Origin: Sulfurimonas sp.
GTDB taxonomy: Bacteria; Campylobacterota; Campylobacteria; Campylobacterales; Sulfurimonadaceae
Direction of reading: 5' to 3'
Length of the DNA: 64,000 nt
NCBI GenBank assembly: GCA_016744115.1
Contig: JADGEZ010000006.1
Coordinates: forward strand, 1-64,000
Shown here: positions 53,102 to 63,942 of the stretch, one piece after another
Numbering within the stretch: the first letter of the stretch is position 1
Layout of the letters: each line of letters starts with the position of its first letter
Notes under the pieces: generated by a model
Databases searched by the model: none
What the model was told of the DNA's origin: nothing
The model's input: the letters and a program-made list of their open reading frames with translations, nothing else
Translations under genes and position numbers: made by a program

Positions 53102-53376
53102 TGACTCAATCTAAAATACTCCAAATCAATCTAACAAACCCTTAAATAACAGACTTTTTATGAAAAATCACTCTAATGTAATCTAAGTTATACTATAGTA
53201 AACTAATCTTTTTAGGGATAGATTTAGGGATTCATTATAATTTACTTTAAGCCACATTTTTGATATAGTTGATATAATTTTAGACATAAGTTGAATCTCT
53301 TTTTTGTGAATATTATTTCAACTACTTAAACAATTGAATTCATTATTTTTTTGTAAATTTGCAAGTGGCTCTCATA
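53102..53376. other. AT-rich spacer between tmRNA and glycan locus
   Basis: About 275 bp without a gene. No terminator with a clear stem and T run and no repeat of the tmRNA 3' end is seen within the window. It probably holds the promoter of the glycan locus. Confidence 0.4.
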
Positions 53377-53931
53377 ATGAATAACATAATTTTAAAAAAC
53401 TATTTACTTCTAACAGAAGATGAAAATAAAAATATTTTAGAAATAAGAAATTCTAAAAACATTAGATTAGCATCACTAAATGAAGATATAATTACCTTTG
53501 AAAATCATTTAAAATGGATAGAAAATAATAAAAAAGACAATGCAAATAGATACTATGCAGTATTTGAGGGAAATGATATAGTCGGAGCAATTTACATAAC
53601 TGGAATTAATACCATTAGAAATACTTGTTCTTGGGGTTTGTATTTTAAAAAAAATATTAATATCTTTACTTCATCAATTTGCACCTATTTGATTATACAA
53701 AAGATATTTTATGAATTAAAAATAAATACACTTCATTTAAAAGTAAAAAAAGACAACATTGCTGCATATAAATTTGACACAAGTTTTGGTTTTAAAAAGT
53801 ATGATGAACGAAATGAACAATATTTCATGTATATGAATAAAATAATGTGGAATGATAAAAAAAACACTTCTTCGTTTACTATATTACTAAAGAAAATAGA
53901 AAAAATACACTATAAATTTATAGAGGGATAA
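53377..53931 (+). CDS. GNAT-family N-acetyltransferase, PseH-like
   Basis: Opens the glycan locus. LEIRNSKNIRLASLNEDIITFENHLKWIE (split, about residues 20-50) closely resembles the start of PseH-type acetyltransferases that acetylate UDP-4-amino sugars in pseudaminic acid synthesis. Acetyl-CoA binding would involve the following strand-helix region (about 80-140). I choose ATG 53377 (MNNIILKN) rather than the TTG at 53359. About 184 aa. With the nearby aminotransferase it could acylate an amino sugar. Whether the donor is acetyl-CoA or an acyl-ACP from the next gene is open. Confidence 0.7.
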   Translation: MNNIILKNYLLLTEDENKNILEIRNSKNIRLASLNEDIITFENHLKWIENNKKDNANRYYAVFEGNDIVGAIYITGINTIRNTCSWGLYFKKNINIFTSSICTYLIIQKIFYELKINTLHLKVKKDNIAAYKFDTSFGFKKYDERNEQYFMYMNKIMWNDKKNTSSFTILLKKIEKIHYKFIEG

Positions 53932-53934
53932 TAA

Positions 53935-54192
53935 ATGAACATAGAAAAAACAATAGAAAAAATATTTTTTGAGGTCTTAGAACAAACAGATAGTAAGTTA
54001 CTTGTTGATACACTTCATGATGATGTACTATTGCTTGAGAGTGGTCTTGATTCTTTAGGATTTGCGATTTTAGTCGCTACATTAGAAGATGAATTGGATT
54101 ATGACCCTTTTTCTATGATGAAAAATGCAATTTATCCTTCAACTTATGGAGAATTTGTAAGAATTTATAAAGAGATGTATCCAAAGAAATGA
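53935..54192 (+). CDS. acyl carrier protein
   Basis: Small acidic four-helix protein. LLESGLDSLGFAILVATLEDEL (split, about residues 35-56) contains the DSL serine that receives phosphopantetheine. 85 aa, normal. It follows the acetyltransferase by 3 bp, with GAGGGA as ribosome-binding site, and overlaps the acyl ligase gene. A dedicated ACP in a sugar locus suggests an acyl group other than plain acetate is built and transferred here. Confidence 0.85.
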   Translation: MNIEKTIEKIFFEVLEQTDSKLLVDTLHDDVLLLESGLDSLGFAILVATLEDELDYDPFSMMKNAIYPSTYGEFVRIYKEMYPKK

Positions 54193-55523
54193 TAACAAAG
54201 AAGTCTATTTTAACTGAAATATTAACTATTCCTAAAAATAGATTAGCTTTAGTTTCAAAAACTAGAGAAATTTCTTATAAAGATATAGTAACAATTTATG
54301 AGAAAAATAAAGAATTAATTTCTTCTTTAGAAAATAAATGTATCGCTATACATTCATCAAAAAGAGAAGATTTAGCCCTTTTATTAGCGATTTTGGATGG
54401 AAATACTAAAAGAATAGTATTTATACCAGAAGATATACAAAAAAAGTATTTAGAAAAATATTATACGCAGGCTCATGTTCATTATGAAGTAAGCTTAGAT
54501 AATGATATTTTAAAATTAAAAATCATTCTTAATACTGATATAAAATTATTAAATGAAAATACTGAGTGGATAATTCCTACATCAGGAACAACAAGTTCTC
54601 CAAAATTAATATCTCATACTTTTGATAGTTTAACCACAACAGTAAAGAAAAATATCCAAGAAGGAGATTCTTTTATATGGGGATTAACATTTGATATATA
54701 TAGATTTTCAGGAATTCAGGTATTTTTACAATCAATATTAAGTGGTTCAAGGTTAATCATCAGTGAGAGTAATTTTTCAATAGATGAAACTATTAATCTT
54801 TTTGCAAATAATTCCTGTAATATAATCTCTGCAACACCATCTTTTTGGCGTAAAGTTCTTATGTCCCCAGCATCCTCAAACTTATGTATTTCAAATATTA
54901 CCTTAGGTGGAGAGATTTCAGATCAGACTATATTGGATGCATTAATCAGAAGATTTCCCGAGGCTAAAATAGTACATATTTATGCTTCTACTGAAGTAGG
55001 TGTTGGCTTTTGCGTCAATGACAAAAAAGGAGGCTTTCCTTTAGCGTATGTAATAAAGGGGATCAAAGAGGTACAAATAAAGATTATAGATAACTTACTA
55101 TTTATTAAATCCAATAAAAAAATACAATATTATTTATCTAAGGATAACATGTATAATGATCAAGGTTTTATAAATACAGGCGATCTAGTAGAAATTAGAA
55201 ATGATAGAGTTTATTTTAAAGGGAGAGAATCTGGTTCTATTAATGTGGGAGGCAACAAAGTGCATCCTGAAGAAGTGGAATTTCTTATATTGAAATCTGG
55301 CTTAGTCAATGAAGTAAAAGTATATGCAAAAAAGAACTCAATGATGGGTAATTTAGTTTATGCAGATATAGTGTTATCTAATCAAAAGCAAGATGAAAAA
55401 GTAATAAAAAAGCTTTTGTTTAAATACTGTAATAATAATCTTGATAGTTTTAAAGTACCCGCAATGATTAAAATCTTAAAATCTATAGATATCACTAACA
55501 GTGGTAAAATAAAAAGGAATTAA
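54189..55523 (+). CDS. AMP-dependent acyl ligase (ANL superfamily)
   Basis: Activates a carboxylic acid as acyl-AMP and loads it on CoA or, given the neighbour, on the ACP. TSGTTSSPKLISHTF (about residues 118-132) is the P-loop motif A3; YASTEVGVGF (about 264-273) is A5; NTGDLVEIRNDRVYFKGRESGSINVGGNKVHPEEVE (split, about 315-350) covers A7 and A8. The N-terminal domain is reduced: 444 aa versus about 500 usual. The ATG overlaps the ACP stop. Substrate unknown. Confidence 0.85.
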   Translation: MITKKSILTEILTIPKNRLALVSKTREISYKDIVTIYEKNKELISSLENKCIAIHSSKREDLALLLAILDGNTKRIVFIPEDIQKKYLEKYYTQAHVHYEVSLDNDILKLKIILNTDIKLLNENTEWIIPTSGTTSSPKLISHTFDSLTTTVKKNIQEGDSFIWGLTFDIYRFSGIQVFLQSILSGSRLIISESNFSIDETINLFANNSCNIISATPSFWRKVLMSPASSNLCISNITLGGEISDQTILDALIRRFPEAKIVHIYASTEVGVGFCVNDKKGGFPLAYVIKGIKEVQIKIIDNLLFIKSNKKIQYYLSKDNMYNDQGFINTGDLVEIRNDRVYFKGRESGSINVGGNKVHPEEVEFLILKSGLVNEVKVYAKKNSMMGNLVYADIVLSNQKQDEKVIKKLLFKYCNNNLDSFKVPAMIKILKSIDITNSGKIKRN

Positions 55524-55524
55524 T

Positions 55525-56247
55525 ATGAACCTTGTAATAGTAACTGGGGCTTCAAAAGGATTAGGTCTCTCAATTTGTAAGAACCTTTTAAAAAATAATT
55601 ATAAAATAATTGCTATTTCAAGAACTAAAAGTAAACAATTTATAGAACTAATGGAAAAATATAATGAGCAACTATTTTTTAAAGAATATGACTTTAATGA
55701 TATAGAAAATATCAAACATTTAGTAAAAGATATTAAAAAAGAGTTTGGTACTATTTATGGACTCATTAATAATGCAGCGGTAGGTTTTGATGGTGTACTA
55801 GGAACTATGCATGAAAGCGATATTTCCCAACTCATTAGAGTTAATACAGAAGCCCCCATTATATTGACTAAATATATATCAAGAGCAATGTTAGTCAAAC
55901 AAAAAGGCAGAATTATAAATATAAGTTCAATTATCGCATCAACAGGTTTTAATGGTTTATCAGTTTATGCGGCAACAAAAGCTGCATTAAGTGGTTTTAC
56001 AAAATCACTTTGTAGAGAATTAGGAAAAGCAAATATCACTGTAAATACTATATCCCCTGGTTATATGAGTACAGATATGACAAGTTCTTTACAAGGGGAT
56101 AAATTAGAAACTATAAAAAGAAGAAGTCCTTTGGGAGATTTAGCACAAGTTGAAGATGTTGCATCAATGGTAAATTATATACTAAGCCCTGATGCTAAAA
56201 ATATAACTGGAGCTAATTTTACAATCGATGCGGGAAGTACGGCTTAA
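55525..56247 (+). CDS. short-chain dehydrogenase, FabG-like
   Basis: NAD(P)-dependent reductase. VTGASKGLGLSIC (residues about 5-17) is the cofactor motif; NNAAVGFDG (about 84-92) and the catalytic INISSIIASTG...YAATKAALSG (about 130-160, Ser-Tyr-Lys) are intact; PGYMSTDMT follows. 240 aa, normal for 3-oxoacyl-ACP reductase. Together with ACP and ligase it could produce a hydroxyacyl group. Begins one base after the ligase stop. Confidence 0.88.
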   Translation: MNLVIVTGASKGLGLSICKNLLKNNYKIIAISRTKSKQFIELMEKYNEQLFFKEYDFNDIENIKHLVKDIKKEFGTIYGLINNAAVGFDGVLGTMHESDISQLIRVNTEAPIILTKYISRAMLVKQKGRIINISSIIASTGFNGLSVYAATKAALSGFTKSLCRELGKANITVNTISPGYMSTDMTSSLQGDKLETIKRRSPLGDLAQVEDVASMVNYILSPDAKNITGANFTIDAGSTA

Positions 56248-56284
56248 TGTTTGAAATAAAAATAAGTGATGGAGGAGTAATTAT

Positions 56285-57361
56285 ATGGTAAATATCACAA
56301 AAACATATCTACCAAATAAAAAAAAATATAAAGAATATGTGGATGAGATATATAATAGTGGCTGGATAACAAATAATGGTCCCTTAGTACAAAGACTTGA
56401 AAAAAGACTTGAAAAATATCTCGGTGTTAAAAACATAATCTTGGTTTCAAATGGTACTTCAGCTTTAGAAATTGCATATAGAACACTTGATATAAGGGAT
56501 TCCGCACTCACGACACCGTTTTCATTTGTAGCGACTACAAGCTCATTGGTTACAAATGGTATCAAAGCAATTTTTGTAGACATAGATGAAAAAACACTTA
56601 ATCTTGATAGTGAAAAAATAGAGAGATTTATAACTAAACACACAAGTGCAATAGTTCCTGTACATGTATTTGGAAACCCTTGTGATGTAGAACAAATCGC
56701 AAAAATCGCAAATAAATATAATCTAAAAGTAGTCTATGACGCGGCTCATGCTTTTGATGTAAAATATAAAGGTCAATCTATATTAAACTACGGAGATATA
56801 TCTACTCTTAGTTTTCATGCAACGAAACTTTTTCATACTATAGAAGGTGGTGCTTTGGTTATCAATGATGATAAATTAGCACAGAAGGCTAGGTATCTTA
56901 TAAACTTTGGAATAGAAAACCCTGAGTCTATTCCTTATCTAGGAACAAATGCAAAGATGAATGAGTTTGAAGCGGCTATGGGCTTGTGTATACTCGATGA
57001 TATAGCAGAAATAAAATCAAAAAGAAAAGATGTTGTACTTTACTATAAAAAAGAATTAGATGGTATCCTTAGGTTTCAAGAACAAAATAAAAACTCAAAT
57101 CAAAATTATAGTTATTTTCCAGTAATCTTTAAGAATGAAGAAGAGCTTAAAAGAGTACAAAAAGCTTTAAACGATGAGTTAATCTTTCCAAGAAGATATT
57201 TTTATCCATCACTTGATTCTTTAGATTATATAGAACCAAAACAAAATATGCCAATATCAAGGGATATATCAAAAAGAATCCTTGCTTTGCCTCTATACCC
57301 TGATTTAGAAAAAGAGATACAAGAACTTATAATAAAAACTATAAAAGAAAATATACAATGA
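56285..57361 (+). CDS. DegT/DnrJ/EryC1/StrS sugar aminotransferase
   Basis: PLP-dependent enzyme that aminates a keto sugar nucleotide. SNGTSALEIAYRTL (about residues 56-69) is the phosphate-binding region; VYDAAHAFDVKY (about 155-166) carries the PLP-contacting Asp; LSFHATKLFHTIEGGALV (split, about 178-195) contains the Schiff-base Lys. 358 aa, normal. GGAGGAG before the ATG is unusually strong, giving this gene its own efficient start. Confidence 0.92.
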   Translation: MVNITKTYLPNKKKYKEYVDEIYNSGWITNNGPLVQRLEKRLEKYLGVKNIILVSNGTSALEIAYRTLDIRDSALTTPFSFVATTSSLVTNGIKAIFVDIDEKTLNLDSEKIERFITKHTSAIVPVHVFGNPCDVEQIAKIANKYNLKVVYDAAHAFDVKYKGQSILNYGDISTLSFHATKLFHTIEGGALVINDDKLAQKARYLINFGIENPESIPYLGTNAKMNEFEAAMGLCILDDIAEIKSKRKDVVLYYKKELDGILRFQEQNKNSNQNYSYFPVIFKNEEELKRVQKALNDELIFPRRYFYPSLDSLDYIEPKQNMPISRDISKRILALPLYPDLEKEIQELIIKTIKENIQ

Positions 57362-58059
57362 CCATCGCAATTATGCAACCATATTTATTCCCCTATATAG
57401 GATATTGGCAACTGATAAATGCTGTTGATACTTTTGTTTTATATGATAATATTGAATTTTCTAAAAAAGGATGGTTTCATAGAAACAATATCTTATTAAA
57501 TAAGCAAAAAACTCTATTTTCAATCCCTTTAAAAAAAGATTCTGATAGTTTGGATGTAAGGAATAGATTTATTTCAAATGAAGCAGACAAACAGATTACT
57601 AAGATTCTAGCACAAATAGAAAATAGTTATAAAAAAGCACCCTATTTTAATGATATATTTCCCTTGATTAAAACTATTTTCATGTATAATGAAAAGAATT
57701 TATTTCAATATATTTATAACTCAATAATTTTACTATGTGAATATCTTGATATAAAAACAACTATAGTTATCTCTTCAACTATTGATATTAATCATAATCT
57801 AAAATCGCAAGAAAAAGTCATAGCTATAAATATAGCCCTAAATTCCACTCAATATATAAATCCAATAGGTGGAAGAGAACTATATGATAATCAAGTATTT
57901 CAAAAAGAAAATATACAGTTAAACTTTTTAGAATCAGATGTTCCAGTATATAAGCAATTTGATAATGACTTTATGCCATACCTTTGTATTATTGATATTT
58001 TGATGTTTAATAGCATAGAAGATGTTAAGAAGATGTTATCAGAATATGAGATGAAATAG
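57358..58059 (+). CDS. WbqC-family protein
   Basis: IAIMQPYLFPYIGYWQLINAVDTFVLYDNIEF (split, residues about 3-34) and KGWFHRNNIL are the family hallmark. WbqC-like proteins occur in O-antigen, capsule and flagellin-modification clusters next to aminotransferases and are thought to take part in acyl or amino-sugar transfer steps; their exact reaction is not well established. 233 aa, soluble. Overlaps the aminotransferase by 4 bp. Confidence 0.85.
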   Translation: MTIAIMQPYLFPYIGYWQLINAVDTFVLYDNIEFSKKGWFHRNNILLNKQKTLFSIPLKKDSDSLDVRNRFISNEADKQITKILAQIENSYKKAPYFNDIFPLIKTIFMYNEKNLFQYIYNSIILLCEYLDIKTTIVISSTIDINHNLKSQEKVIAINIALNSTQYINPIGGRELYDNQVFQKENIQLNFLESDVPVYKQFDNDFMPYLCIIDILMFNSIEDVKKMLSEYEMK

Positions 58060-58067
58060 GATTAAAA

Positions 58068-58784
58068 ATGCATAAACACTTAGATAAACATTTAAAAGCA
58101 TATACAGGAGATAATTTATACGATTTTGATAATACGATTCTGTTAAATTGGTATTCAAAAAGAATAGTAGAACTATCTAATTCTAATGAATCACTATTGG
58201 AATTAGGTTTGGGACATGGTTTTACTGCATTAAACTTTTCAATTTATTTTGAAAAGCATCTTATTTTAGATGGTTCAAAAGATATTATTGAAAATTTTAA
58301 AGCTAAATATCCAAGCTTTAAATCTAATATATGTGAAACATACTTTGAAGCTTTTCAAACAAAAGAGAGATTTGATTTGATTGTTATGGGCTTTATTTTA
58401 GAGCATGTTGATGAACCAGTTAAAATTATGAAATACTATAAACAATTTTTAAATCCTAAGGGTAGAATGTTTTTATCAGTTCCAAATGCTGAAGTTATGA
58501 ATAGAAAACTAGGTGAACTATCAGGACTGTTAGAAGATATTACTGAATTATCAGAAAACGATATTTTACTTGGACATAAAAGATATTATACGAAAAAAAC
58601 ATTTATAGATGATATTCATTTGGCTGAACTAGAAGTTATAAGTATAGAGGGGATATATCTTAAACCATTCACTACAAAACAGATGATAAGTTTAGATTTA
58701 AAGGAAAATATAATTGACTCATTGTGTAAACTAGGAGTTCAATATCCAGAATTATCTTGCGGAATTTTGGTGGAAGTAAAATGA
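58068..58784 (+). CDS. class I SAM-dependent methyltransferase
   Basis: LLELGLGHGFTALNF (residues about 42-56) is the SAM-binding motif I; FDLIVMGFILEHVDEPVKIM (split, about 103-122) gives motifs II/III with the EHV(D) hallmark of Methyltransf_11/23; GRMFLSVPNAEVMNRKLG follows. 238 aa. It resembles the second methyltransferase at 63202 in layout and in the C-terminal QYPELS/C segment, so they are probably paralogues. The acceptor is likely a sugar hydroxyl or carboxyl. Confidence 0.82.
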   Translation: MHKHLDKHLKAYTGDNLYDFDNTILLNWYSKRIVELSNSNESLLELGLGHGFTALNFSIYFEKHLILDGSKDIIENFKAKYPSFKSNICETYFEAFQTKERFDLIVMGFILEHVDEPVKIMKYYKQFLNPKGRMFLSVPNAEVMNRKLGELSGLLEDITELSENDILLGHKRYYTKKTFIDDIHLAELEVISIEGIYLKPFTTKQMISLDLKENIIDSLCKLGVQYPELSCGILVEVK

Positions 58785-59623
58785 AAATACTAATTATAGG
58801 TGGAACTTCAGCCTTGTCTATCTCTTTGATAAAAGTTTTGAAAAAAGAGCATACTTTAATAACAGCTGGAAGAAAAAACTGTGACCTATATCTTGATTTA
58901 AATAAAGATATTGATATTCGGAATTTTCCAAAAGATATTAATGCTGTCATACATGTTGCAGCCTCATTTGGAGGACAAACATATCTAAATTTTAAAGATG
59001 CAATTAGTGCTAATGTACTGGGTACTTTAAGAATATGTCAAATAACTAAAGAATTGAATATAAAACATTTAACTCTTATTTCTAGTATGTCTGTCTGTCT
59101 GTCTGTCTCTTCTCCTTATTACACACAATATGCTTTAACTAAAAAACAATCAGAAGAAATCGCAATATTATTTAGTAAAGAAAATAATATTAACTTGACT
59201 ATATTAAGACCATCTCAAATATATGGCAATGATAAAAGTTTTGCTAGAAATCAACCTTTCTTTTATCATATGCTAGAAAAAGCAAAGAATGGCGAAGATA
59301 TTTACATATATGGTAATCATGATGCATTAAGAAATTATATCTATGTTGAAGATTTGAATGAAATAATTGTACGAGTTATAAATAAAAAAATACTTGGTAT
59401 ATTTTATTGTGGAACAATGAAAGATGTGAGTTATTCGCAAATTGGAAAATCTGCCCATATTATTTATGGAAATGGTGGAGAAATTAAATTTTTAAGAGAT
59501 AAGGATGATATACCAGATAATATTTTTAATAAAGATAATGATTTATATGAAAAAATTAACTACTATCCAAATACAAGTATTGAAAAAGGTATTAAAAATA
59601 TACTTACGCAAGGGAAAATATGA
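58781..59623 (+). CDS. NAD-dependent sugar epimerase/dehydratase (SDR), with a TGTC tract
   Basis: Start placed at ATG 58781 (ATGA overlap with the methyltransferase stop); the ORF track begins 24 bp earlier. LIIGGTSALSISL (about residues 4-16) replaces the usual GxxGxxG; AVIHVAASFGG, TLISSMSVC and YALTKKQ (about 118-124, Tyr-Lys pair) are typical of extended SDRs. About 280 aa. The SMSVCLSVSS stretch (about 103-112), directly before the active-site region, is encoded by five TGTC repeats, so slippage would truncate the protein. Product sugar unknown. Confidence 0.8.
   Translation: MKILIIGGTSALSISLIKVLKKEHTLITAGRKNCDLYLDLNKDIDIRNFPKDINAVIHVAASFGGQTYLNFKDAISANVLGTLRICQITKELNIKHLTLISSMSVCLSVSSPYYTQYALTKKQSEEIAILFSKENNINLTILRPSQIYGNDKSFARNQPFFYHMLEKAKNGEDIYIYGNHDALRNYIYVEDLNEIIVRVINKKILGIFYCGTMKDVSYSQIGKSAHIIYGNGGEIKFLRDKDDIPDNIFNKDNDLYEKINYYPNTSIEKGIKNILTQGKI
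59088..59107 (+). repeat. TGTC x5 simple-sequence tract
   Basis: Five perfect tandem TGTC units followed by TCT, inside the epimerase coding region. The unit is not a multiple of three, so gain or loss of one copy shifts the frame. Such tracts drive on/off phase variation of surface-glycan genes in Campylobacter, Helicobacter and Haemophilus. Confidence 0.9.
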
Positions 59624-60585
59624 AAAATATTCTTGTTTCAGGGGCTAGTGGAATTGTAGGCTACGGTATTTTAAAGTCATTAAGAATGAGTAAAGAAAAA
59701 TATCACCTTATTGGAACTTCTATATATGAAGATTCAATAGCAGAAGCATTTTGTGATTTATTTATAAAAACTATACCCACAAGTGATGATAATTATATAA
59801 ATTGGCTTATTTCTACTATAGAAAAAAATAAAATTGATTTAATAATTCCTGGTATTGAAATAGATATGAAAGTTTGGAATAAAAATAGAGAAACGATTCA
59901 ACAAACAGGTGTTGAACTTTTACTAAATAAAAGTTCTTTGATTGAATTGTGTACCGATAAATGGAAATTTTATGAATATATGGAAGAACATACTATTTCA
60001 TATTCTATTAAAAGTTCTCTAGTATGTGATTATGAAAATCTAGTCAAAAATTTAGGAAAAACTTTATTAGTTAAACCTCGGTGTGGGTTTGGTTCACAAG
60101 GAATAGTTAAAATAGAAGATGAAAAAACTTTTAATTTATCTCAAAAAGATATTGGTACAAACTTAATGGTTCAAGAATATGTAGGATCGGATGATGAAGA
60201 ATACTCTTGTTCTGCATTTTGTGACGGAGAAGGTTCTTTTATAAGTTTAATGATATTAAAAAGAAAACTATCTAAAGATGGTTTTACTGAAAAAGCATTA
60301 GTTGTTGAAGACAATTCAATTTACCTTGCAATATCTGATTTATGTAAACATTTTAAACCATTAGGACCAACAAATTTTCAGTTTAGAAAATGTTCAAATA
60401 ATGAACTCAAATTATTAGAAATAAATCCTAGAATATCTTCATCGACCTCAATAAGAAGTGCTTTTGGTTTTAATGAGTCGATTATGTCTGTTGAATTTTT
60501 TCTTGATAAGAGGAAACTAAAAAAACAAATAACTAAAAAAGGTAGAGCAATTCGCTATACAGAGGATTTTATATTTTATGAATAA
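59620..60585 (+). CDS. ATP-grasp enzyme (CarB-like)
   Basis: An N-terminal Rossmann-like part (ILVSGASGIVGYGILKSL, residues about 4-21) precedes the ATP-grasp core: LLVKPRCGFGSQGIVKIED (about 149-167) and LLEINPRISSSTSIR (about 265-279, metal-binding Glu/Asn). 321 aa. ATP-grasp proteins join a carboxylate to an amine or similar; in sugar loci they are found making amide or peptide-like decorations. Overlaps neighbours by 4 and 8 bp. Substrate unknown. Confidence 0.8.
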   Translation: MKNILVSGASGIVGYGILKSLRMSKEKYHLIGTSIYEDSIAEAFCDLFIKTIPTSDDNYINWLISTIEKNKIDLIIPGIEIDMKVWNKNRETIQQTGVELLLNKSSLIELCTDKWKFYEYMEEHTISYSIKSSLVCDYENLVKNLGKTLLVKPRCGFGSQGIVKIEDEKTFNLSQKDIGTNLMVQEYVGSDDEEYSCSAFCDGEGSFISLMILKRKLSKDGFTEKALVVEDNSIYLAISDLCKHFKPLGPTNFQFRKCSNNELKLLEINPRISSSTSIRSAFGFNESIMSVEFFLDKRKLKKQITKKGRAIRYTEDFIFYE

Positions 60586-61270
60586 AATAGCATTTATATC
60601 AGATATACATGGTAACTATGAAGCCTTAAAAGAGGTTTTAAAAAAAATAGATAGTATGCAAATTAAAGAGATATATTGTTTAGGAGATGTAACAGGTTAC
60701 TACTCTCAAGTAAACGAATGTTGTGATGAATTAAGAAAACGAGATATTCCTGTACTTATGGGAAATCATGATTGGTATTTAGCTGGAGGTGGCTTTTGTC
60801 CAAGATCACAAAGCGTCAATGATTGTTTAGTGTATCAAAGAAAAGTTCTTTCTAATGAAAATCTTGATTGGATAAAAACTTTTTCTATTCAAATTGAAAT
60901 AGAAAATATAAAAATGGTACATGGTGGATGGGCTGATCCAATTGATGAATATTTATTAAAACCAACACAAGAATATTTTGAAAAAGTGCAAGGGAAATAT
61001 TTTCTCTCTGGTCATACTCATTTACCAAGGGTTGATGATTTTGGAGATAAAATTTATTGTAATCCTGGTTCTGTAGGGCAACCAAGGGATGGTGATGCTA
61101 GAGCTTCATTTGCTGTTTTTGATGAAAAATTTGAGATATATAGAGTTGAATATGATATACAAAAAGTTTGCCAATTAATGAATGTCGCTGGATTCAATGA
61201 TTATTATTATGGTTGTTTGGAAACAGGTGCAAGAAATTTATGTAAGCCAAAAAGGAGCAAGAATGTTTAA
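60578..61270 (+). CDS. metallophosphoesterase (YfcE/MJ0936-like)
   Basis: Calcineurin-like fold: FISDIHGNYEAL (residues about 6-17), CLGDVTGYY (about 34-42), LMGNHDWYL (about 61-69), MVHGGW, FLSGHTHLPRVDD (about 141-153) and the late NPGSVGQPRDGD, giving the two-metal site. 230 aa, normal. Probably a phosphatase or phosphodiesterase acting on a sugar phosphate or nucleotide sugar. Overlaps the ATP-grasp gene. Confidence 0.88.
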   Translation: MNKIAFISDIHGNYEALKEVLKKIDSMQIKEIYCLGDVTGYYSQVNECCDELRKRDIPVLMGNHDWYLAGGGFCPRSQSVNDCLVYQRKVLSNENLDWIKTFSIQIEIENIKMVHGGWADPIDEYLLKPTQEYFEKVQGKYFLSGHTHLPRVDDFGDKIYCNPGSVGQPRDGDARASFAVFDEKFEIYRVEYDIQKVCQLMNVAGFNDYYYGCLETGARNLCKPKRSKNV

Positions 61271-62225
61271 GTGGAAAAAGTTAGGAAAAATTTTTGACCC
61301 TTTAGAACAAAAAAATAAAAATTGGATGGAAATATATGCACAGTCTCCCAATGCGATAATTTTTGATGATTATATTAGAGTTTATTTTTCTTCTAGAGCA
61401 AAAGCGGATGAAAATGAACAATTTATAAGTAGACTAGGGTATATAGATTTAGATAAAAACAATCTTTTTAATATTCTTAATATTTGTAATAATCCAATAT
61501 TACCTTTGGGAGCATGTGGCACTTTTGATGAGTTCGGAACTTATCCAGTATCCGTTATAAAGGACAATAACCAAATTAAAGCTTATTATGCTGGGTGGAC
61601 TCGTTGTGAATCAGTACCTTTTAATGCAGCAATTGGATTAGCTTATAGTAATGATAATGGAGATACTTTTCAAAAAATTGGTCAAGGACCCGTACTGTCA
61701 TATACTCCTAATGAACCATTTGTTTTGGGAAGTCCTAGAATAAATAAGTTTAATGATATATATTATTTATGGTATTCAGCGGGAAGAGAATGGATAGAAA
61801 CAGATAGTATTCCTCAGCCTGTTTACAAAATAAGACTTGCTACATCCTCTGATGGATTAAATTGGACTAAAGAAGGCAAAGATTTAATAGCAAATGTTTT
61901 AGAAGAAAATGAGTGTCAAGCAAGTGCAGAAGTTTTTTATTATGAAAATAAATATCATATGTTTTTTTCTTATAGATATAATTTAGGATATAACGAAAAA
62001 AATCGTGGTTATAAAATAGGCTATGCATATTCAAGAGATTTAAAAAATTGGACTAGAGATGATTCTCAAGTAGGAATTGACATATCTGATGAAGGATGGG
62101 ATAATGAATCTATTAGTTATCCTAGTATTTTTGAGTTGAATAATAAAATATATATGTTCTTTCAGGGTAACGGTATTGGTAAAAATGGATTTGGAATAGC
62201 AGAACTAGAAAGTTATACAGGATAA
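61263..62225 (+). CDS. beta-propeller glycoside hydrolase-like protein, copy 1
   Basis: Start placed at ATG 61263 because AAGGAG lies just before it and MFKWKKLGKIFDP matches copy 2; the ORF track begins 81 bp earlier. About 320 aa. Repeated blades of the form AAIGLAYSNDNGDTF, IRLATSSDGLNW and IGYAYSRDLKNWTRDD resemble five-bladed GH43/GH32/GH130-type propellers. There is no signal peptide, so it is cytoplasmic and might act on a nucleotide- or lipid-linked sugar, or be a phosphorylase or a non-enzymatic member. Overlaps the phosphoesterase stop. Confidence 0.75.
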   Translation: MFKWKKLGKIFDPLEQKNKNWMEIYAQSPNAIIFDDYIRVYFSSRAKADENEQFISRLGYIDLDKNNLFNILNICNNPILPLGACGTFDEFGTYPVSVIKDNNQIKAYYAGWTRCESVPFNAAIGLAYSNDNGDTFQKIGQGPVLSYTPNEPFVLGSPRINKFNDIYYLWYSAGREWIETDSIPQPVYKIRLATSSDGLNWTKEGKDLIANVLEENECQASAEVFYYENKYHMFFSYRYNLGYNEKNRGYKIGYAYSRDLKNWTRDDSQVGIDISDEGWDNESISYPSIFELNNKIYMFFQGNGIGKNGFGIAELESYTG

Positions 62226-62227
62226 AT

Positions 62228-63181
62228 ATGAAGTGGAAAAAATTAGGAAAAATATTTGACCCTAGAGATCATAACTTAGCATCAAATTGTTTTGCATTTG
62301 CAAAATCTCCACAAGCAATTATTTTTGATGATTTTGTAAGGATATATTTTTCAGCAGCACAAAGAGATGAGAAAAACAAGTTATTAAGTCATGTAATGTA
62401 TGTTGATTTTGATAAAGAATTTAAAAATATTTTAAAAATTTCAGATAAGGAAGTTATACCATTGGGGGAAATGGGATGTTTTGACGAACATGGTATTTTC
62501 CCTTTAAATGTATATAAAGAAAATAATAGAATCTTAGCATACTCAACAGGGTGGAATAGAAAAGTCTCGGTATCAGCTGATGCATCAATCGGTTTTGCAC
62601 AAAGTTTTGATAATGGTGAAACATTTGAGAAATATGGGAATGGTCCCATTGTTACTTCTTCATTGAATGAACCATTTTTAGTTGGAGATGCTTTTGTGAG
62701 TAAATTTAATGATACATACCATATGTGGTATATATATGGACTAAGATGGATTAATGATGCTGATACAAATAACTCGGAGAGAGTCTATAAAATTACTTAT
62801 GCTGATTCAAAAGATGGTATTAATTGGAATAGAAATAGTAAATGTATCATTTCAGATGTCATAGATGAGAATGAATGCCAAGCATTACCTACTGTTATTT
62901 TTTATGAAAATAAGTATCATATGTTTTTTTCATATAGAGATGCTATTGGATTTAGAACTAATAAAAATAATGGATATAGAACAGGTTATGCATATTCAAA
63001 AGATTTGAAAAATTGGACGAGAGATGACTCAAAAGTTGGCATAGAATTATCAAAAGAAGGTTGGGATTCAGAAATGATGTGTTACCCATTTGTATTTCAT
63101 TGTGATGAAAAAGTGTATATGCTTTATAACGGTAATGAATTTGGTAAGAATGGATTTGGATTAGCTTTATTAGAGAATTAA
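62228..63181 (+). CDS. beta-propeller glycoside hydrolase-like protein, copy 2
   Basis: Tandem paralogue of the preceding gene: shared MKWKKLGKIFDP, IIFDDFVRIYFS, ENECQA..FYENKYHMFFSYR, GYAYSKDLKNWTRDDS and GKNGFG. 317 aa, no signal peptide. Three bases separate it from copy 1. The paired copies probably act on related residues of the glycan. Differences occur mostly in loops between blades, as expected if substrate specificity differs. Confidence 0.75.
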   Translation: MKWKKLGKIFDPRDHNLASNCFAFAKSPQAIIFDDFVRIYFSAAQRDEKNKLLSHVMYVDFDKEFKNILKISDKEVIPLGEMGCFDEHGIFPLNVYKENNRILAYSTGWNRKVSVSADASIGFAQSFDNGETFEKYGNGPIVTSSLNEPFLVGDAFVSKFNDTYHMWYIYGLRWINDADTNNSERVYKITYADSKDGINWNRNSKCIISDVIDENECQALPTVIFYENKYHMFFSYRDAIGFRTNKNNGYRTGYAYSKDLKNWTRDDSKVGIELSKEGWDSEMMCYPFVFHCDEKVYMLYNGNEFGKNGFGLALLEN

Positions 63182-63201
63182 ATTAATAAAAGGAAGATAA
63201 A

Positions 63202-63942
63202 ATGAAACGAGATTATAATAAAGAGATAGTTGATAATGAAAGAAAGTATGGCTATAGTTTTGATTATGATGTTATGCATCCATTTATGATTAAATCATTT
63301 AAACCATTTTTTAATACTAAAGGGTCTTTACTAGAACTTGGTTGTTTTAAAGGAGACTTTACAAAAAAATTTATTGAATATTTTGATGATATCACATGTG
63401 TTGAAGCATCCAGTGAAGCCATAGAAGAAGCAAAACAAAAAGTACCTTCAAATGTCAAGTTTATAAATAACTTATTTGAAAATGTAGAACTACCGAAAAA
63501 ATATGATAATATTATTTTAACACATGTCTTAGAACACTTGGATGACCCAGTACAAGTCTTAAAAAGAATAAATGACGAATGGCTAAATGATGGTGGTAGA
63601 TTGTTTTTAGTAACTCCAAATGCAATGGCAGCATCAAGACAAATAGCTGTTAAGATGGGACTTATCACTCATAACTGTGCCGTAACCCTAGCAGAGAAAG
63701 AACATGGACATAGAATTACATATACCTTAGATACATTAGAAAGAGATGCAAAAGAAGCAGGACTAAATGTAATTCATAGATCTGGTATATTTTTCAAAGC
63801 ATTGGCAAATTTTCAATGGGATAGATTACTTCAAACAGATATTATTTCAAAAGAGTATTTAGATGGTTGCTATGATTTAGGACAACAGTATCCAGAGCTT
63901 TGTTCTAGTGTCTTTTTGATGTGCGAAAAAGGTAAACAATGA
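63202..63942 (+). CDS. class I SAM-dependent methyltransferase, second of the locus
   Basis: LLELGCFKGDFTKKF (residues about 38-52) is motif I; YDNIILTHVLEHLDDPVQVL (split, about 98-117) and GRLFLVTPNAMAASRQIAVKMG (split, about 130-151) follow as in copy 1. 246 aa. GGAAG before the ATG. Its C terminus DLGQQYPELCSSVFLMCEK resembles that of the methyltransferase at 58068. Its stop overlaps the next start. Confidence 0.82.
   Translation: MKRDYNKEIVDNERKYGYSFDYDVMHPFMIKSFKPFFNTKGSLLELGCFKGDFTKKFIEYFDDITCVEASSEAIEEAKQKVPSNVKFINNLFENVELPKKYDNIILTHVLEHLDDPVQVLKRINDEWLNDGGRLFLVTPNAMAASRQIAVKMGLITHNCAVTLAEKEHGHRITYTLDTLERDAKEAGLNVIHRSGIFFKALANFQWDRLLQTDIISKEYLDGCYDLGQQYPELCSSVFLMCEKGKQ

Follow-up and report, generated by a model that had tools for sequence, protein, structure and literature searches.

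Tetranucleotide contingency loci are typical of Haemophilus, Neisseria and Moraxella, and a genome bearing a phasome is expected to hold several tracts. In Campylobacterota, the known SSR switches are, to our knowledge, almost all poly-G and come from animal-associated species. The tract described here, five TGTC units in a gene of a Sulfurimonas sp. genome, lies within a stretch of 64,000 nucleotides (the window). The arrangement of the NDH-1 genes and the gene content would fit Campylobacterota. Its predicted mode of action, translational ON/OFF control by SSR slippage, is also that of the poly-G surface genes of Campylobacter and Helicobacter, whose repeat unit is a mononucleotide G whereas that of the window tract is a tetranucleotide. 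The CTGG repeat of lacI has three units, fewer than the window tract. It is likewise a short 4-bp repeat within a gene, inactivating upon gain or loss of one unit, and in P. putida some mutation spectra consist mainly of CTGG insertions and deletions (PMC3485313); it represents a mutation hotspot and not a selected switch.

The contingency loci of H. influenzae (lgtC and pgt1, with GACA; lic2A, lic3A, oafA and lex2A) resemble the window tract in that a glycan gene carries a four-base repeat in its coding part, where slippage would shift the frame; the GACA unit is complementary to TGTC. The GACA tracts count 8-38 units in lgtC and 5-16 in pgt1 (PMC2651432). The H. influenzae tracts are mostly longer, have been shown to differ between strains and lie for the most part close to the 5′ end of the gene (PMC2651432), whereas the tract in the window has five units, lies mid-gene and comes from one genome. 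A five-unit tract thus falls near the lower limit of the variable loci seen so far. In 77 Campylobacter genomes, no SSR with a tetranucleotide or longer unit was found and mononucleotide G tracts dominated (PMC6321876). As for mutability, 3-12 AGTC units make up a 'mutable' class, changing at 1e-7 to 1e-5 per division, and tracts of more than 10 units (more than 9-10 for tetranucleotides in general) the 'hypermutable' class that underlies phase variation; 'mutable' tracts are said not to arise by selection for mutability (PMC4235727). On this scale, which was established for AGTC and TAAA repeats and in different species, five TGTC units belong to the 'mutable' class and fall short of hypermutable length.

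Position and coding context of the tract

The tract and the gene that carries it are the following.

59088..59108, + strand: perfect period-4 microsatellite, TGTC x5 + T, within coding sequence (from reading of the sequence)
58781..59623, + strand: NAD-dependent epimerase/dehydratase (extended SDR), 280 aa, ATG start (from Pfam PF01370, E=1.6e-24, PDB relatives and homologue alignment)

The original prediction had placed TGTC x5 at 59088-59107 of the forward strand. This position is exact, and the perfect period-4 run reaches one base further, to 59108, for a total of 21 bp. The tract occupies codons 103-110 of the ORF and encodes residues SVCLSV after Met103; with five units the ORF is open, in agreement with the earlier statement that the gene is presently in frame. 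Five tetranucleotide units is exactly the PhasomeIt cut-off for an in-frame non-triplet repeat (at least five; PMC6321876). Given the residues SVCLSV and the codon usage of the local cluster, the probability of an exact repeat is ~1.3e-5, mainly because the CTG-Leu (1.4%) and GTC-Val (11%) codons are rare here.

The gene had been described as a sugar epimerase, and the PF01370 match indeed assigns its product to the epimerase family. The PDB relatives are UDP-glucose 4-epimerase, dTDP-glucose 4,6-dehydratase and MoeE5. The protein shares its active-site marks with a homologue from Acidobacteriota (see below): a GGTSAL Rossmann start, a pair of serines at 101-102 and the YALTK (YxxxK) motif at 117-121. 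By these sequence features, the protein is classed as an extended-SDR sugar epimerase/dehydratase. Every match to an NCBIfam equivalog (GalE, RmlB, RmlD, LegB and others) was far under its cut-off, so the assignment stays at the level of the family. The TGTC tract sits in a loop between the strand bearing the catalytic serine and YALTK. An AlphaFold model, poor (pLDDT 56) and built from a two-sequence alignment, suggests that strand 96-100 is joined to the YxxxK-bearing helix 112-134 by a loop comprising residues 103-111.

The epimerase gene is part of a larger array:

53359..63942, + strand: co-directional glycan/acyl-sugar biosynthesis cluster, running past the window end
58068..58784, + strand: methyltransferase, immediate upstream neighbour of the epimerase gene, whose start it overlaps (ATGA)
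59620..60585, + strand: ATP-grasp (carbamoyl-phosphate-synthase-like) protein, its ATG overlapping the epimerase stop (ATGA)

Besides the epimerase and ATP-grasp genes, the cluster contains genes for an acetyltransferase-like protein, a carrier-like protein, an AMP ligase, a FabG-like SDR, a DegT aminotransferase, WbqC, methyltransferases, a phosphoesterase and two GH32/43-like proteins. Beyond the co-directional run, a PIG-L-type deacetylase and a formyltransferase-like protein are encoded on the opposite strand. The predicted gene content identifies the cluster as one for glycan or acylated-sugar biosynthesis, and the overlap between the ATP-grasp ATG and the epimerase stop makes coupling of these two genes likely. 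The GC content of the cluster is 28%, as compared to 32% for the window, and no close relative of the epimerase or ATP-grasp gene was found in the phylum sample; on both grounds the cluster looks accessory. Thus, of the surface-glycan locus originally proposed, an epimerase-family gene within a sugar/glycan biosynthesis cluster stands, and an effect on the surface glycan may be supposed. The suggestion of a role in flagellin modification is unsupported. Three flagellin-domain genes map to other contigs (C11:7830-8240 and C64:12478-12888, on two separate contigs, and on C21 a third, longer gene), and the cluster showed no such gene, within the limits that the contig breaks of a 74-contig draft set to a linkage test. 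In the cluster, the aminotransferase and the epimerase match the pseudaminic/legionaminic equivalogs PseC, LegB and LegC only far below cut-off.

Predicted consequences of changes in repeat number

Reading frames were computed for tracts of 1-10 units. With 2, 5 or 8 units the frame is open over its full length (276, 280 and 284 aa, respectively), whereas with 1, 3, 4, 6, 7, 9 or 10 units a stop codon is met at 113-125 aa, 10-11 codons past the tract. The truncated products lack YxxxK, which occupies 117-121 when the frame is open, together with all downstream residues. Since the early stop removes this motif, slippage would act as a clean ON/OFF switch. The earlier proposal of on/off control by slippage is supported in part, a one-unit change being enough to yield an early stop.

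The following sequence of events can be envisaged. DNA polymerase slippage would add or remove TGTC units; as long as five units are present the frame is kept and the gene is ON. Gain or loss of one or two units would bring in the stop 10-11 codons past the tract and put Tyr-x3-Lys out of frame, leaving an inactive fragment of 113-125 aa, and the OFF cell would lack the enzyme. Synthesis of the ATP-grasp protein encoded downstream would probably decrease as well in such a cell, since the start of that gene overlaps the epimerase stop. A further slip would restore the frame, presumably making the change reversible in nature, and the surface glycan may be altered as a result. The slippage rate expected at five units is moderate, with a published class of 1e-7 to 1e-5 per division; the tract would then behave as a low-rate reversible ON/OFF hotspot and not as a dedicated high-rate switch. 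The tract thus has phase-variation potential, with the gene currently ON, and adaptive phase variation at this site is plausible from the sequence.

Origin of the tract

Expectations for the 2.05 Mb genome were obtained from a third-order Markov model trained on 468 kb of the Sulfurimonas genome. The model predicts 3e-8 positions of TGTC with at least five units and 0.012 positions of any tetranucleotide with at least five units. A pattern search of the whole genome found TGTC with at least four units only at the 59088 tract (2e-5 expected). In the sampled sequence, period-4 runs of at least three units occupied 33 positions, 10 of them in the TGTC tract, against 21.5 expected. With the tract set aside, the 23 remaining positions agree with the model. 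The runner-up runs in 608 kb read in detail were of 16 bp (TAAA) and 15 bp (AAAC), and no other tetranucleotide tract of at least five units was present in this portion of the genome. The length of the tract is far beyond chance expectation, and neither a chance product nor chance codon usage is retained as its origin.

The sole close homologue found for the epimerase is encoded in an Acidobacteriota MAG (JAISUT010000048.1, L009:6001-6828) and shows 47% identity over the whole protein. Searches among relatives, the genus, the phylum, viral contigs, plasmids and phages for close orthologues returned nothing beyond distant SDR similarity and no conspecific copy of the locus. Genes of the ATP-grasp and phosphoesterase types, as in the window, lie downstream from the homologue; a DegT aminotransferase gene lies two genes upstream of it. 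Across the tract, the two proteins have equal numbers of residues (SSMSVCLSVSSPYYTQYALTKK in the epimerase, SSLSAMIAATGHYYGQYAFTKK in the homologue), but in the homologue the DNA at the site is without a tandem repeat. Since the homologue has the same length without the repeat, five units are a functional length and yield a protein of normal size. Within this two-sequence comparison, only the window's lineage appears to carry the repeat, whose history may be one of substitution or of slippage.

The alignment also bears on the possibility that the tract arose in assembly or sequencing. The genome is a draft in 74 contigs, and an error of this kind would be conceivable; the 21 bp of the tract are far below short-read length, however, and at the site the two proteins agree exactly in reading frame and in length. 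We regard an artefact as very improbable and rejected it.

The residues of the loop are not conserved (SVCLSV in the epimerase, SAMIAA in the homologue). This would fit a neutral history in which the repeat expanded by local slippage in a tolerant loop, five units being held by selection for an open frame and OFF cells being lost. The shortness of the tract and the lack of companion tracts point the same way. Such a history leaves unexplained why the tract is intact, with rare CTG and GTC codons and no synonymous break, unless the expansion is very recent. We rate this account as possible, though less likely than not.

Reading of the tract and repeats elsewhere

A more demanding interpretation is that the tract is a true contingency locus, selected for switching, with cells alternating between two surface glycan forms. 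The type of gene, the clean ON/OFF frames and a length far above chance speak for it. So do the use of SSR switching for surface genes in the phylum (PMC6321876) and that of GACA in H. influenzae glycosyltransferases (PMC2651432). On the other hand, the tract has only five units, companion tetranucleotide tracts are absent from the 608 kb, and tracts of such size are held not to come from selection for mutability (PMC4235727). The poly-G tracts also speak against it: in a companion check of poly-G/C tracts of at least 8 bp, most were outside genes or at gene edges, and several lay within dispersed intergenic repeats. We consider a contingency locus doubtful, and it appears unlikely that a Campylobacterota-type bacterium, presumably free-living, should possess a selected, working tetranucleotide switch in a glycan gene. 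The description that we favour, with good though not full confidence, is that of a slippage-prone coding microsatellite in an epimerase loop within an accessory glycan cluster, predicted from sequence to be a low-rate reversible ON/OFF hotspot. Such a mutable-tract mechanism is compatible with either a selected switch or a neutral relic, so the confidences given to these readings overlap.

If the tract does switch, tetranucleotide contingency loci would arise in Campylobacterota-type bacteria too, and this one would have been caught early, at five units and as yet alone. Otherwise, it would exemplify a proto-SSR emerging in a tolerant active-site loop. The mechanism is a textbook one whichever reading holds.

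Some of the other repeats may be mentioned in their own right. Tracts of C8-C10 occur in dispersed REP-like intergenic repeats around 'gtcattgggtgcttgacacggaatct', at 64-72 in the window and at C3:184-193, C3:316-325 and C6:7555-7562 of genome G000; several repeats of this type are close to contig ends, and they supply part of the genome's poly-G count. At C65:5505-5514 (L051) of G000, a phage tail tape-measure-like ORF has a G10 tract immediately ahead of its start codon, where changes in tract length could alter translation. At C6:7085-7092 (L038), a long ORF carries a G8 tract in its 5′ portion, past a signal-like segment (WGGSSSSSSSG); this tract is possibly a further translational SSR.

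In 397 genomes of the phylum, TGTC/GACA with at least five units was found in only two other genomes, each time as a long array within the gene for a type IIG restriction-methyltransferase (PADLOC PDLC03610, Pfam Type_ISP_C). The arrays, GACA x29 at L063:6118-6233 (G217:C5) and x24 at L064:6184-6279 (G060:C1), lie near the 3′ end of the gene and come from two genera within one order. Of the three frames downstream of either array, one soon reaches a stop and the other two encode differing C-terminal tails, each ending in FPLYL. These arrays are candidates for a three-state phase-variable specificity switch, as judged from their sequence.
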